Source of the DNA: Oricola cellulosilytica
GTDB lineage: Bacteria; Pseudomonadota; Alphaproteobacteria; Rhizobiales; Rhizobiaceae
Direction of reading: 5' to 3'
Assembly: GCF_019966575.1 (NCBI RefSeq)
Contig: NZ_JAINFK010000005.1
Coordinates: 257,431 to 321,430, forward strand
DNA: 64,000 nucleotides
Shown: positions 35,894 to 40,901 of the stretch, piece after piece
Numbering within the stretch: the first letter of the stretch is position 1
How the letters are laid out: each line of letters begins with the position of its first letter
Position numbers and translations under genes: made by a program
The notes under the pieces: generated by a model
What the model saw: only the letters and a program-made list of their open reading frames with translations
Told to the model about the DNA's origin: nothing
The model's database searches: none

Positions 35894-36474
35894 AGTGTTC
35901 GTGGACATGACAGGGCATGCCGCTTGATCGGGCGTCTATATCACCGCTCGCGCACCGATCAATGAAAAAATCCGCGCATTCGCGGCGAAACAGGGCTGTC
36001 TCGATCAAAACAGGCGTTCAGTATAAAGCGTTTCGCCCTCCTGGCGAAGCCCCTTGCTGCGCCCGGCCGTTCCCGCCGAACGCAACGACGACTTCCGTGA
36101 TAGCGCCTTCGCGCATCCTATCCAGACCGCATCGGAGTTGGCCGGTAGTCCGGGCCGCCTTCGCACCATTCGAAGCGCCGCCACCTGCCCCTGCGTCACG
36201 GCGCAAGTTATCTGCCGTTGGCGGCATCGATAACGCCGCGTTTTTGCCAATCATCGACTTGACGCTCGATCAACGTTGCCAAACGGAAGCTCTCTCATTT
36301 CAACTGCTTAGCACATGGCCGAAGCATTTTGAGGTCCGCAGTTACGCCCGGCATTGTGCGATGCACAATTGCATGGGTGCTATGCGTTTTCACGTCTTAT
36401 CATATTCGACAGGGCGACTATCTTCCGGTCACAACAAAACAAAAAAATGACCAACCAAGAACGAGACTAAGAAG
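35894..36474. other. 581-base geneless interval before the DUF1127 module
   Basis: Several overlapping open frames occur here on both strands, but all are Arg/Pro/Ser-rich in the way of GC-rich shadow frames and none has a good start or a recognizable domain. On the minus strand a hairpin TTCGCC/GGCGAA with AGGAG in its loop lies near 36032-36050. The last 100 bases become AT-rich and must hold the promoter for the first DUF1127 gene; no textbook sigma-70 or EcfG site is obvious. Confidence 0.5.
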
Positions 36475-36621
36475 ATGAATATCGCACGCTCTTTCAACGA
36501 ATGGCGCCGTTACCGCGCGACGTATAACGAACTGACACGCCTTTCCAGCCGTGAACTGAACGACCTCGGCATCAACCGCGGCGACATCCCGTTCATCGCA
36601 CGCAAGGCATCGCGCGTCTGA
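36475..36621 (+). CDS. DUF1127 mini-protein, copy 1
   Basis: A 48-residue basic protein beginning MNIARSFNEWRRYRATYNEL and continuing with the family core LSSRELNDLGINRGDI (YjiS-like DUF1127). In Rhodobacter a relative (CcaF1) is cotranscribed with stress-induced CCUCCUCCC-motif RNAs and binds RNA. Here three such hairpins follow the stop codon within 140 bases. A second copy of the whole unit lies 463 bases downstream; the two proteins are about 70 percent identical. Confidence 0.9.
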   Translation: MNIARSFNEWRRYRATYNELTRLSSRELNDLGINRGDIPFIARKASRV

Positions 36622-36642
36622 AGCACCGACGAAATTCCGTCC

Positions 36643-36756
36643 GGACCGATCCTCCTCCCCGGTCCGCGCGGATTTAAGGGACGCGGCCCTATCCTCCTCC
36701 CGGGGTTCGCGTCACCGAAATGAGACACCCGCTGCTCCTCCCGCAGCGGGTGTTTT
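36643..36756 (+). ncRNA. CCUCC-loop hairpin array and terminator, copy 1
   Basis: Three hairpins follow DUF1127 copy 1. The first (36643-36665) has stem GGACCG/CGGTCC, the second (36680-36713) GACGCG/CGCGTC, and the third (36725-36753) the perfect 11-base stem ACACCCGCTGC/GCAGCGGGTGT with a U-run. Each loop shows TCCTCC, the first two with the full CCTCCTCCC. This is the layout of the alphaproteobacterial cuckoo/CcsR RNA family, whose loops mimic the anti-Shine-Dalgarno sequence. The third hairpin is also a Rho-independent terminator. Confidence 0.8.
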
Positions 36757-36862
36757 CGTATGCCCCGCAGGGGGTACCTCGAATATCGCGGCCAACATGA
36801 AACGTATGGCGCACTGCATCGTATGCATGGCAGCTTTGCTGAAACGGGCCTTATCAAATCGT

Positions 36863-36889
36863 TTGAAACCCTTATCTTGCAAGCATAAC
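36863..36889 (+). promoter_or_regulatory. possible promoter of DUF1127 copy 2
   Basis: TTGAAA (36863-36868) and CATAAC (36884-36889) are 15 bases apart, or ATAACG at 16, upstream of the second DUF1127 gene. The spacing is short for a housekeeping promoter, and TTGAAA also resembles the heat-shock sigma -35 element. It lies after the terminator of copy 1, so copy 2 needs its own promoter. Confidence 0.3.
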
Positions 36890-36937
36890 GAAAACGAAAA
36901 GACCACCGAAGCAGCCCAACCGAGAAAGGATCTGACT

Positions 36938-37084
36938 ATGAACCTCGCACGCTCCTTCAACGAATGGCGCCGCTACAACGCGACGCGCGCGCAGCTCAAC
37001 CGCCTCAGCAGCCGTGAACTTGAAGATATCGGCATGAACCGCGGCGATATCACGGAAGTTGCCCGCAAGGCGGCTCGCATCTGA
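36938..37084 (+). CDS. DUF1127 mini-protein, copy 2
   Basis: A 48-residue basic protein, MNLARSFNEWRRYNATRAQL then LSSRELEDIGMNRGDITEV, paralogous to copy 1 (same length, most differences in the middle and C-terminus). A strong GAGAAAGGA ribosome binding site lies eight bases upstream. It is followed by its own three-hairpin CCUCC array. Conservation of protein, RNA hairpins and terminator in both copies points to duplication of the entire unit. Confidence 0.9.
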   Translation: MNLARSFNEWRRYNATRAQLNRLSSRELEDIGMNRGDITEVARKAARI

Positions 37085-37101
37085 GAGCACTGAATTCCGG
37101 G

Positions 37102-37216
37102 TGAACCGTTCCTCCTCCCCGGTTCATCTGGCTGACGGGGCGCAGCCCGACCTCCCTCCCAAGGCCCGCGCCATCCGTAACAGACACCCGCTGCTCCTCC
37201 CGCAGCGGGTGTTTTC
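37102..37216 (+). ncRNA. CCUCC-loop hairpin array and terminator, copy 2
   Basis: Three hairpins follow DUF1127 copy 2. The first (37102-37126) is TGAACCG/CGGTTCA with loop CCTCCTCCC. The second (37135-37178) has stem ACGG plus GGCGC with GCGCC plus CCGT and a larger loop where the word has diverged to CCTCCCTCCC. The third (37184-37212) is identical to the terminator hairpin of copy 1 with a TTTT run. Relative to copy 1 the first two stems have changed sequence but kept pairing, which supports selection on RNA structure. Confidence 0.8.
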
Positions 37217-37257
37217 GTTTCTTGAAGCAGGCTGCCGAAAGCGGTATTTCCGGTCCC

Positions 37258-38676
37258 ATGTCTCATTCCCCGGTTCATATCATTGGCGGCGGGCTCGCCG
37301 GATCGGAAGCCGCGTGGCAGATCGCCGCCACGGGCGTTCCGGTCATCCTCCACGAAATGCGTGGCGTTCGCGGCACCGACGCTCACAAGACCGATGGGCT
37401 GGCGGAGCTTGTTTGTTCCAACTCGTTCCGCTCGGATGACTCCGAGCACAACGCGGTCGGGCTGATTCATGCCGAAATGCGCGCCTCCAACTCGCTCATC
37501 ATGCGCTGCGCGGATGCCAACCAGGTGCCCGCTGGTGGGGCGCTTGCCGTTGATCGGGATGGATTTTCCGATGCGGTGACGCAGGCCATCGCGTCGCATG
37601 ACCTGATCGACATCGTTCGCGAGGAAGTCACCGGACTCCCGCCCGCCGAATGGGATCAGGCGATCATCGCGACGGGCCCTCTGACGGCTCCCAGCCTTGC
37701 GGACGCGATCGCCAAGGCTACCGGCAGTGATGCGCTCGCCTTCTTCGACGCCATAGCGCCGATCGTCCATTTCGAGAGCATCGACATGCAGACCGCATGG
37801 TTTCAGTCGCGTTACGACAAGCCAGGACCGGGAGGAACGGGCAAGGATTACATCAACTGCCCGTTGAACGAGTCGCAATACAACGCGTTTGTCGACGCCC
37901 TTATCGCCGGCGATACGACCGAGTTCAAGGAGTGGGAAGGCACGCCCTATTTCGACGGGTGTCTGCCGATCGAGGTGATGGCCGAACGTGGCCGTGAGAC
38001 CCTTCGCCATGGCCCGATGAAGCCAATGGGCCTCACCAATCGTCACAATCCGCACGAAAAGCCCTACGCAGTTGTGCAATTGCGTCAGGACAACGCTCTC
38101 GGCACGCTATACAACATGGTCGGGTTCCAAACGAAGCTCCGCTACGGCGCGCAAGCGGAAATCTTCCGCATGATTCCGGGTCTTGCCAAAGCGGAATTCG
38201 CACGTCTGGGCGGCCTGCACCGCAACACCTATCTCAACTCGCCAGTTCTGCTTACACCGGATTTGCAGCTTAAGGGTCGCCCGGGGCTCCGGTTCGCGGG
38301 TCAGATCACTGGCTGCGAAGGCTACGTGGAATCCGCCGCGATCGGTCTTCTGGCGGGCCGCTTCGCCGCTTCAGACCGCCTCGGGAAACACAAGGCTTTG
38401 CCGCCAACGACCACCGCATTCGGCGCGCTCCTGAACCACATTACCGGCGGACACATCGTTAGCGACGACGAAAAGAAGCGTTCATTCCAGCCAATGAACG
38501 TCAATTTCGGACTTTTTCCGCCGCTGGAGCCGGGCGCGCTGAAGAAACCTGAGGGCCATGTGGGCCGCTGGCGCGGAAAGGAAAAGGCGGTCGCCAAGAA
38601 AAAGGCCATCACGGACCGGGCAAAACGCGATCTCCAAGAATGGATGTCTGGCGGTGCAGTAATGGCCGCTGAATAA
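37258..38676 (+). CDS. trmFO: TrmFO, folate-dependent tRNA m5U54 methyltransferase
   Basis: TrmFO makes 5-methyluridine at tRNA position 54 using methylenetetrahydrofolate and FADH2. The 472-residue protein has the FAD motif [15 protein letters not shown] near residue 6, [11 protein letters not shown] near 55, and [22 protein letters not shown] near 345, all family hallmarks. The frame could start at TTG 37222, but the ATG at 37258 gives the standard N-terminus. It begins 42 bases after the terminator of the second CCUCC array. Confidence 0.94.
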
Positions 38677-39368: not shown

Positions 39369-40901
39369 ATGAAAATCTCTACCGACACGGCCAAGAAGCC
39401 AACTCTCGACAAGGACCTCGACAAGATCGTTCGCATCGAGGAAGCCGCCGGCTTTGTTTCGCGCGGCTTCGCTGGCCCCGGCCTCGCGCTTCTGTTTCTC
39501 GCCGCTGCCGCCATTTTCGCCGCTCTCTACATCGGCGCGGGGCAAAGTGGCCTTTTCATCGTAATCGCAGCCGTCCTTGGCGGCTATATGGCGCTCAACA
39601 TCGGCGCGAACGATGTTGCGAACAATGTCGGACCCGCTGTTGGCTCGCGCGCCTTGACGATGGTGGGAGCGTTGTTGATCGCTGCCGTATTCGAGAGCGC
39701 CGGTGCGCTCATTGCAGGCGGCGATGTGGTCGGAACCATTTCCAAGGGAATAATCGATCCTGCGAGCGTTGCGAGCCCTGACACCTTCATCTGGGCAATG
39801 ATGTCCGCGCTTATCGCCTCAGCGCTCTGGGTAAATCTTGCGACGATCATAGGCGCGCCGGTTTCCACCACGCACTCCGTCGTCGGAGGCGTGATGGGCG
39901 CCGGTATTGCCGCGGCGGGTTTCGGCGCCGTTAACTGGCCGATGATGGGAACCATCGCAGCGAGTTGGGTGATCTCGCCCGTGCTGGGCGGTGTCATCGG
40001 CGCGATGTTCCTCGCGTTCATCAAGGTCATGATCATCTATCGGGACGACAAGATTGCCGCTGCCAGGCGCTGGGTCCCCGTACTCCTGGCGATCATGGCC
40101 GCAGCGTTCGCCGGCTATCTGGCGATGAAGGGACTGAAAAAAGTCGTATCCCTGAGCGGATGGCAGATCCTTGCAATCGGGGCAGTCGCGGGATTGGCCA
40201 CATATTTCGGTACGAAACCGCTCATCTTCCGGCAATCCGAGGGTATGGAAAACCGCAATCAGTCCTTGCGAACACTCTTCCATATTCCGCTGATTTGCTC
40301 GGCAGCACTCCTTTCCTTCGCGCACGGGGCAAATGACGTCGCGAACGCCGTCGGTCCACTCGCTGCGATCGTCCACACAGCCGAGGCAGGCGAGGTTCTC
40401 GCCAAAGTCTCGATTCCGTTTTGGGTAATGCTGATCGGCGCGGCCGGAATATCGATCGGGCTTGTTCTATTTGGGCCACGCCTTATCCGGATGGTCGGAG
40501 AACAGATTACCCGGCTCAATCCCATGCGGGCTTATTGCGTCGCGCTTTCCGCGGCCATCACCGTCATTATCGCGTCATGGCTGGGGCTGCCGGTTTCCTC
40601 GACCCATATTGCCGTTGGGGCTGTGTTCGGCGTTGGCTTTTTCCGCGAGTGGTTCACGTCGCGCTCCAGCCACCGGCGCGAATACCTGGCTCGGAAATAT
40701 GAGCGTGGCCGAAAGGAAAACAACCAAGCCGAGGCCGGCGAGCAACCACGTCGCAATGGCATGGCGCCGGAAGAATCTCGCCGCCGCGTTCTCGTCCGGC
40801 GGGCGCATTTCACGACCATCGTAGCGGCGTGGGTCATTACGGTGCCAGCAGCTGCGCTTCTTTCAGCGGCAACGTTTCTCGTGCTCAACACACTCTTCTA
40901 A
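39369..40901 (+). CDS. pit: PiT-family inorganic phosphate transporter
   Basis: A 510-residue membrane protein with about eleven helices. The two inverted PHO-4 signatures are present, GANDVANNVGPAVGSRALT near residue 78 and HGANDVANAVGP near 320, which transport metal-phosphate with protons or sodium. A cytoplasmic loop near residues 435-480 is highly charged. No phoU-like regulator gene adjoins it. It is convergent with the fatty acid hydroxylase gene, with a short AGGCGG/CCGCCT inverted repeat in the 23-base gap. Confidence 0.92.
   Translation: MKISTDTAKKPTLDKDLDKIVRIEEAAGFVSRGFAGPGLALLFLAAAAIFAALYIGAGQSGLFIVIAAVLGGYMALNIGANDVANNVGPAVGSRALTMVGALLIAAVFESAGALIAGGDVVGTISKGIIDPASVASPDTFIWAMMSALIASALWVNLATIIGAPVSTTHSVVGGVMGAGIAAAGFGAVNWPMMGTIAASWVISPVLGGVIGAMFLAFIKVMIIYRDDKIAAARRWVPVLLAIMAAAFAGYLAMKGLKKVVSLSGWQILAIGAVAGLATYFGTKPLIFRQSEGMENRNQSLRTLFHIPLICSAALLSFAHGANDVANAVGPLAAIVHTAEAGEVLAKVSIPFWVMLIGAAGISIGLVLFGPRLIRMVGEQITRLNPMRAYCVALSAAITVIIASWLGLPVSSTHIAVGAVFGVGFFREWFTSRSSHRREYLARKYERGRKENNQAEAGEQPRRNGMAPEESRRRVLVRRAHFTTIVAAWVITVPAAALLSAATFLVLNTLF

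Follow-up and report, generated by a model that had tools for sequence, protein, structure and literature searches.

A Probable Tandem Duplication of a CIN1-Type Unit in Oricola, Pairing DUF1127 Genes with Anti-Shine-Dalgarno RNAs in Copies That May Be Partly Specialised

Introduction

The question raised by this locus is what a bacterium gains from two adjacent copies of a unit made of a very short DUF1127 gene and an array of RNA hairpins with CCUCC loops, and whether the two copies are held for the same purpose. Short DUF1127 genes linked to CcsR-like RNAs are described in the literature as the CIN1 locus (PMC10253847, with reference to the cuckoo RNA paper), so the kind of locus is known. 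An earlier note on the window, by which we mean the whole 64,000-nucleotide stretch of DNA that was analysed, described the tandem arrangement, assigned the RNAs to the cuckoo/CcsR family, and suggested that the two units may allow graded or stress-specific control. We examined the parts of the locus, their conservation in six Oricola genomes, and the occurrence of similar designs elsewhere.

Results

Two units of one design

The two-unit locus is bordered on one side by the trigger factor gene (tig) and a tRNA-Leu, and on the other side by a GidA-family gene (PF01134), which from its length and start we take to be trmFO. The same design, a DUF1127 gene followed by two hairpins and then by a third hairpin that is also the terminator, is found twice, and all three hairpins are predicted in each RNA. 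The features are as follows.

36475..36621, + strand: unit 1 DUF1127 gene, 48 aa (PF06568, 56.7 bits; cut-off 23.3)
36631-36758, + strand: unit 1 RNA array (Rfam ar14, 75.4 bits)
36636..36672, + strand: unit 1 hairpin 1, with CCUCCUCCC in the loop
36678..36716, + strand: unit 1 hairpin 2, with CCUCCUCCC in the loop
36722..36756, + strand: unit 1 hairpin 3, the terminator, with CUCCUCCC at the loop
36938..37084, + strand: unit 2 DUF1127 gene, 48 aa (PF06568, 52.7 bits; cut-off 23.3)
37091-37217, + strand: unit 2 RNA array (Rfam ar14, 60.6 bits)
37097..37131, + strand: unit 2 hairpin 1, with CCUCCUCCC in the loop
37135..37178, + strand: unit 2 hairpin 2, with a weaker stem and a loop with CCUCCCUCCC
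37182..37214, + strand: unit 2 hairpin 3, the terminator, with CUCCUCCC at the loop

Both tandem 48-residue proteins exceed the PF06568 cut-off, and they share 34 of 48 residues, their genes 109 of 147 bases; the gene content and repeated design were thus correctly described in the earlier note. A third DUF1127 match above the Pfam cut-off is present in the window's genome (G000:C12:44966-45064, minus strand), this being weaker (33.4 bits) and part of a longer open frame. Downstream of the locus, a putative promoter of trmFO's own (CTTGAA-N18-TATTTC, window 37221-37260) follows directly after the unit 2 terminator. Seven nucleotides separate its -10-like element from the ATG, and the layout looks conserved when the six Oricola genomes are aligned, an arrangement that points to a leaderless mRNA. 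At window 39369-40901, approximately 2.2 kb from unit 2, lies a frame resembling a PiT-type phosphate transporter (named by eye).

The RNA arrays match the ar14/NfeR1 family

Both arrays pass the gathering score of 58.8 bits for the Rfam ar14 (RF02344)/NfeR1 covariance model, a family for which no match was found in any of 14 control genomes. With the CcsR1 model (RF02791) the arrays score 28.4 and 26.1 bits against a cut-off of 65.3, and CcsR was accordingly ruled out as the precise family. The assignment to cuckoo/CcsR RNAs therefore stands for the kind of locus, a DUF1127 gene plus a CCUCC-loop RNA as in CIN1, and gives way to ar14/NfeR1 for the Rfam family. The predicted folds are considerably more stable than those of shuffled sequences, with a minimum free energy of -65.3 kcal/mol for the unit 1 RNA (z -6.0) and -58.5 kcal/mol for the unit 2 RNA (z -4.9), none of 200 shuffles being as stable in either case.

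Loops 1 to 3 keep 9, 9, and 8 nt of the CCUCCUCCC motif in unit 1, and 9, 6, and 8 nt in unit 2. The weakened loop is that of unit 2 hairpin 2, in which CCUCCCUCCC retains six contiguous nucleotides of the motif on an apical stem of three pairs. The proposal that loops and terminator are kept between the copies consequently applies to the terminator and to most of the loops, this one excepted. The AGACACCCGCTGCTCCTCCCGCAGCGGGTGTTTTCGT of the terminator hairpin is identical in the two copies; gene conversion was considered from the alignment as the cause of this identity, and the stem sequence is also present in relatives.

Both promoters have the same architecture

The upstream regions of the two units contain the following elements, with matches to published LsrB and VtlR sites.

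36354..36368, + strand: unit 1 LysR-type palindrome TTGTGCGATGCACAA (T-N11-A), overlapping TGCA-N5-GCAT
36371..36383, + strand: unit 1 GCAT-N3-TG-N3-T, the LsrB/VtlR consensus (PMC8844928), 0 mismatches
36396..36423, + strand: unit 1 sigma70-like core CTTATC-N16-CTATCT, CTTATC starting 25 nt after the GCAT start
36815..36828, + strand: unit 2 box TGCA-N6-GCAT, the LsrB motif of NfeR1 (PMC10746234)
36825..36837, + strand: unit 2 GCAT-N3-TG-N3-T, 1 mismatch
36850..36877, + strand: unit 2 sigma70-like core CTTATC-N16-TTATCT, CTTATC starting 25 nt after the GCAT start

In all 12 Oricola unit promoters GCAT lies exactly 25 nt before CTT(A/C), which is followed by a TAT-like -10 element. TGCA-N6-GCAT is present in 11 of the 12, the exception being the N5 form of the window's unit 1, and the published LsrB consensus is exact at its position in 7 of the 12, among them the window's unit 1. 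Against the 15-nt VtlR motif of Brucella the unit 1 promoter has three mismatches and that of unit 2 two; three or fewer also occur in 4 of 319 plain tiles of 200 bases from the window, tiles that may include the unit promoters themselves. Outside Oricola, 36 of 89 DUF1127 genes at trmFO loci have TGCA-N6-GCAT in the 230 nt before them, and none of the 89 has the reversed motif there.

The pattern used to search for this geometry was derived from the unit promoters themselves and was widened by one base after the unit 1 promoters had been viewed; the narrower form gave 7 matches, and the widened form 12 when both strands of approximately 155 kb, for the most part DNA from around the units, were searched. 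Because the pattern was read off these promoters, its presence there is no test, and the test is its rarity elsewhere. In the six whole Oricola genomes GCAT-N21-CTTM-N18..20-TATNT is found at 18 sites, 12 of them the unit promoters and 6 elsewhere, the reversed pattern being found at 10. A scan of 36200-37400 for E. coli-type sigma70 promoters gave 0 sites against 0.6 expected. RpoH-like promoters were absent from the 12 Oricola upstream regions when searched with two simple patterns, a weak test. The sequence TGTGCNNTGCACA occurs at three places in the window's genome. One of these, at C8:20072, precedes a phasin gene and was set aside as unrelated; the TGTGCAGTGCACA palindrome in the promoter region of that gene (PF09361; G000:C8:20072-20084, L161 around 1501) is possibly a site for a different regulator.

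Both units therefore share one promoter architecture, an LsrB/VtlR-like box upstream of a sigma70-like core as is characteristic of NfeR1, and judged from sequence both promoters look to be of the LsrB/VtlR class. The candidate activator is encoded in the same genome: a LysR protein encoded beside a trxB-like gene matches the LsrB structure from A. tumefaciens (9HH1) with a phmmer E-value of 4.7e-139 and is, on this homology, the LsrB orthologue. LsrB activates NfeR1 in S. meliloti (PMC10746234), VtlR is a positive regulator of DUF1127 genes in Brucella (PMC12595884), and the A. tumefaciens gene atu1667, which encodes a small protein, is likewise activated by VtlR (PMC7486931).

Unit 1 tends to keep its protein and unit 2 its seed loops

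Both units are present in all six Oricola genomes, a comparison of copy number that the earlier note had called for; with the unit 1 protein as query each genome gives two matches and no more, both of them at the two-unit locus. Orthology of unit 1 between species is assigned by position and promoter; the DUF1127 tree (48 columns) does not resolve it. All 12 unit RNAs are predicted to form three hairpins, and two of them have an extra small loop (GCATAC in unit 1 of G005, TACGG in unit 2 of G003) that is left out of the 36 loops analysed here. Covariation is apparent in the stems: among the 6 unit 1 sequences 9 of 33 predicted pairs show a compensatory change, and among the 6 unit 2 sequences 14 of 37 do, which confirms that the stems change while their pairing is kept. 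The five genus mates likewise retain the three-hairpin fold, single pairs being broken in some sequences.

The seed loops differ between the two copies. Across the six genomes, loops with at least 8 contiguous nucleotides of CCUCCUCCC number 8 of 18 in unit 1 and 17 of 18 in unit 2; without the window's species the counts are 5 of 15 and 15 of 15. The description of the loops as kept is thus accurate for the window's own unit 1 and does not extend to unit 1 across the genus. Seed-bearing loops are fewer in unit 1 than in unit 2 in each of the five other species, and in four of these five the fold of unit 1 stays with at most one of its three loops having 8 nt of seed. Seven of the ten diverged unit 1 loops retain 5–7 nt, a length that might still pair. 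A Fisher test on the loop counts gives p 2e-4, a value that treats the loops as independent, though they are not. The low ar14 scores of the relatives' unit 1 partly restate this loop loss, the loop counts themselves being independent of Rfam. Identity over the whole RNA also is lower for unit 1 (0.62) than for unit 2 (0.70).

The proteins show the opposite tendency. Mean identity over 46 codons in the six genomes is 0.794 for unit 1 compared to 0.658 for unit 2, with pN of 0.13 and 0.21, respectively, and similar pS (0.56 and 0.53). Identity is higher for unit 1 in 14 of 15 species pairs, which are not independent of each other; a sign-flip test on alignment columns gives p = 0.005, and leaving out each genome in turn gives values of 0.003-0.042. 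In this sample of six Oricola genomes, unit 1 therefore looks to be kept more for its protein and unit 2 more for its RNA.

The window's species is the exception: its unit 1 seed loops are intact and a single loop of its unit 2 is weakened, so that it does not show the RNA side of a division of labour. A TrmFO tree places the other five species as its sister group with moderate support (91/93, short of the tool's star); its position was not resolved in a Tig tree. A history consistent with these data is that the duplication preceded the split of the six genomes, that both RNAs were originally armed, and that unit 1 then lost seeds in the other lineage.

Similar designs outside Oricola

For trmFO loci from other genomes we examined the best 80 of at least 591. 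A DUF1127 match lies upstream of trmFO in 67 of these best 80, and among them the order of the CCUCC RNAs varies: single units are also seen, in the Mesorhizobium loci two or three RNAs come after a pair of proteins, and in the Sinorhizobium loci two RNAs come before the protein. Two-unit designs are also found in Roseibium/Labrenzia (3 loci) and in another genus of the family (G031), which rules out tandem DUF1127-RNA units as a feature of Oricola only. A weakly resolved tree was calculated from 48 columns of 91 short proteins, among them a selection of the DUF1127 matches from trmFO loci. In it the two G031 proteins join at 100/95 and the six Roseibium/Labrenzia proteins at 97/88; that each set joins its own group suggests separate duplications. 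The G031 pair (L048 1702-2554) has the same doubled design of DUF1127 gene and ar14 RNA, with neither tig nor trmFO nearby in the 16-kb stretch examined.

Other ar14-like RNAs in the genome

A third ar14 match in the window's genome (G000:C1:15056-15184, minus strand; L035 1557-1685) scores 51.9 bits, under the cut-off. It lies downstream of the trxB-like gene and lsrB, and its promoter, with TGTGCATTGCACA, has a layout like that of the units. Its identification as an NfeR1 gene was rejected and that as an AbcR-like RNA preferred, on account of the score and of the adjoining trxB-like gene and lsrB; AbcR1/2 of S. meliloti sit at the same place (PMC8844928). The Rfam search gives no AbcR family name for this RNA. 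Similar AbcR-like RNAs with a similar promoter are present in G001, G002, G003, and G005, and a search of G004 at E 0.001 gave none. A second geometry pattern gave 8 matches; it had been modelled on the same AbcR-like promoters that it recovers. G003 has four tandem AbcR-like copies approximately 256 nt apart (C1; L158 4500-5560), each with a LysR-type box. A weak ar14 match of 36.6 bits with the C-rich loops CCUUCCUCCCCCC and CCCCCCUCCCC was found at G000:C7:41552-41635 (L036 1540-1640), just upstream of an aldehyde dehydrogenase-like frame (named by eye).

Candidate targets

We searched the window's genome for GGGAGGAGG-N3..10-ATG and found 7 sites against 1 for the reversed control, an excess that ordinary Shine-Dalgarno sequences would give likewise. 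The sites precede an AMP-binding enzyme gene (Pfam), two genes named by eye, of which one is similar to it and the other glycerol kinase-like, and four other frames, one of 72 aa without a Pfam hit and three of at most 46 aa; no ABC transporter gene was recognised among the seven. The same search in the five relatives gave 49 sites against 8 in the controls, and 30 loci were inspected. Among these, GGGAGGAGGCTCATG, which can pair with CCUCCUCCC over its full length, lies before one putative ABC sugar-binding protein gene, the same in each case, in 4 of the 6 Oricola genomes, at the following positions.

G001, G003, G004, G005 (L182, L196, L199 near 1501; G004:C34:17981-17995): GGGAGGAGGCTCATG sites

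This protein has no Pfam hit and NCBIfam hits far under their cut-offs, and for G000 and G002 the best identity is 27%, too low for a close orthologue. We regard the site as a lead to a target in the relatives, based on complementarity.

Discussion

We consider it likely that this locus is a tandem duplication of a CIN1-type unit, each copy an LsrB-activated combination of protein and anti-Shine-Dalgarno RNA, and that the copies have become partly specialised. LsrB (VtlR) would activate both sigma70-like promoters. In each of the two transcripts a short DUF1127 coding sequence would come first, and a three-hairpin RNA of the ar14/NfeR1 type, with a terminator of its own, would form the end. 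Cleavage of the mRNA would release this 3'-terminal RNA by analogy with ccaF1-CcsR, a single transcript from which RNase E produces ccaF1 mRNA and CcsR RNAs (PMC10253847). The CCUCCUCCC loops would then pair with Shine-Dalgarno sequences and repress translation by analogy with NfeR1, which in S. meliloti blocks the start region of ntrB with its seeds (PMC10746234). What the proteins would do is suggested by their homologues: CcaF1, a DUF1127 protein, binds RNA and helps to mature the CcsR RNAs (PMC10253847), and small DUF1127 proteins of A. tumefaciens are tied to phosphate control and are reported to interact with PhoR, the choice between action on RNA and action on proteins such as PhoR having been called an "intriguing puzzle" (PMC12501420). 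With a duplication that predates the split of the six genomes, unit 1 would be held mainly for its protein, its RNA fold being kept and its seed loops often lost, and unit 2 mainly for its RNA, with seed loops kept and a protein freer to change.

A simpler explanation is that two units supply more of the same protein and RNA, a graded output in which the differences between copies represent drift. The promoters are indeed alike, both RNAs of the window pass the ar14 cut-off, and their terminators are identical, but dosage does not predict that the unit 1 protein should be the better conserved in the genus and the unit 2 seeds likewise, and drift alone would not spare the unit 1 stems. We find simple dosage unlikely as a full account, though a dosage effect may accompany the two units. 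The other half of the earlier proposal, stress-specific control through two different promoters, has precedents in the RpoHI/RpoHII promoters of ccaF1-CcsR in R. sphaeroides (PMC10253847) and the RpoH1-driven AbcR2 of S. meliloti (PMC8844928). At this locus the LsrB-like geometry is common to both promoters and the two simple RpoH-like patterns are absent from 12 of 12 upstream regions; a shared architecture without an RpoH-like pattern leaves this half unsupported, and we regard it as very improbable.

The hairpins might alternatively act mainly as the 3' UTR and terminator that stabilise the DUF1127 mRNA, or provide a site for the DUF1127 protein as in the case of CcaF1, the CCUCC loops being of minor importance. 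The retention of the fold in the seed-poor unit 1 of four of five relatives is what would be expected from such a role, and the RNA binding by CcaF1 (PMC10253847) also speaks for it. The near-complete retention of seeds in unit 2 (17/18 loops) argues against the loops being minor, as does target silencing by the homologous NfeR1 seeds in S. meliloti (PMC10746234), and we view this explanation as rather improbable.

An extension of the duplication model, which we put forward tentatively and would not yet bet on, is that the protein and RNA functions of the CIN1 locus have parted in Oricola: unit 1 would carry a fold-keeping 3' UTR that is losing its seeds, unit 2 would be an anti-Shine-Dalgarno RNA gene with a relaxed protein, and the window's species would be armed in both RNAs. 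If this is true, Oricola represents a natural separation of the protein and RNA activities, the DUF1127 protein acts independently of linked seeds, and the hairpin fold has a role besides targeting. The conservation of protein and seed loops in different copies provides a natural test of DUF1127 protein versus RNA phenotypes.

Comparison with known systems

Already known are RNAs of the ar14/NfeR1 family, the CIN1 locus, and the control by VtlR of DUF1127 genes (PMC12595884) and of atu1667 (PMC7486931). New here are the reciprocal conservation and the apparent split of protein and RNA between the copies. The literature searched gave no description of a duplicated whole unit or of such reciprocal conservation; the primary papers on cuckoo RNAs, CcaF1, and CcsR may mention tandem units.

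The RNAs are close to ar14/NfeR1 (RF02344; founder from S. meliloti), which similarly has three hairpins, diverging stems, and an LsrB-type box, and whose CCUCCUCCC loops the window's arrays match in part. NfeR1 is described as a transcript of 123 nt (115 nt in another paper) from its own promoter (PMC10746234, PMC8844928), whereas the Oricola unit is duplicated and the only promoter-like site noted precedes the DUF1127 gene, so that the Oricola RNA would be derived from a 3' UTR. AbcR1 and AbcR2 share the anti-Shine-Dalgarno seeds, and AbcR1 also has an LsrB-activated promoter (PMC8844928), but the Oricola RNAs fit ar14 and lie between tig and trmFO after DUF1127 genes. The VtlR-regulated DUF1127 genes of Brucella and atu1667 of A. 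tumefaciens are comparable as short protein genes under VtlR; Oricola, where control by LsrB is predicted, differs from them in the tandem protein-plus-RNA arrangement.

With CIN1/cuckoo loci and ccaF1-CcsR1-4 of R. sphaeroides the units share the short DUF1127 gene, the CCUCC-type RNAs, and the terminator (PMC10253847), and by the definition given there, a short DUF1127 gene with CcsR-like RNAs, each Oricola unit is of the CIN1 kind. The differences are that the Oricola arrays fall under the CcsR1 cut-off, that neither of the two patterns located an RpoH-like promoter, and that Oricola has two protein-plus-RNA units where R. sphaeroides has one protein with four RNAs. The Oricola locus is otherwise a real, conserved, and ordinary member of a known regulatory kind, in a variant arrangement.
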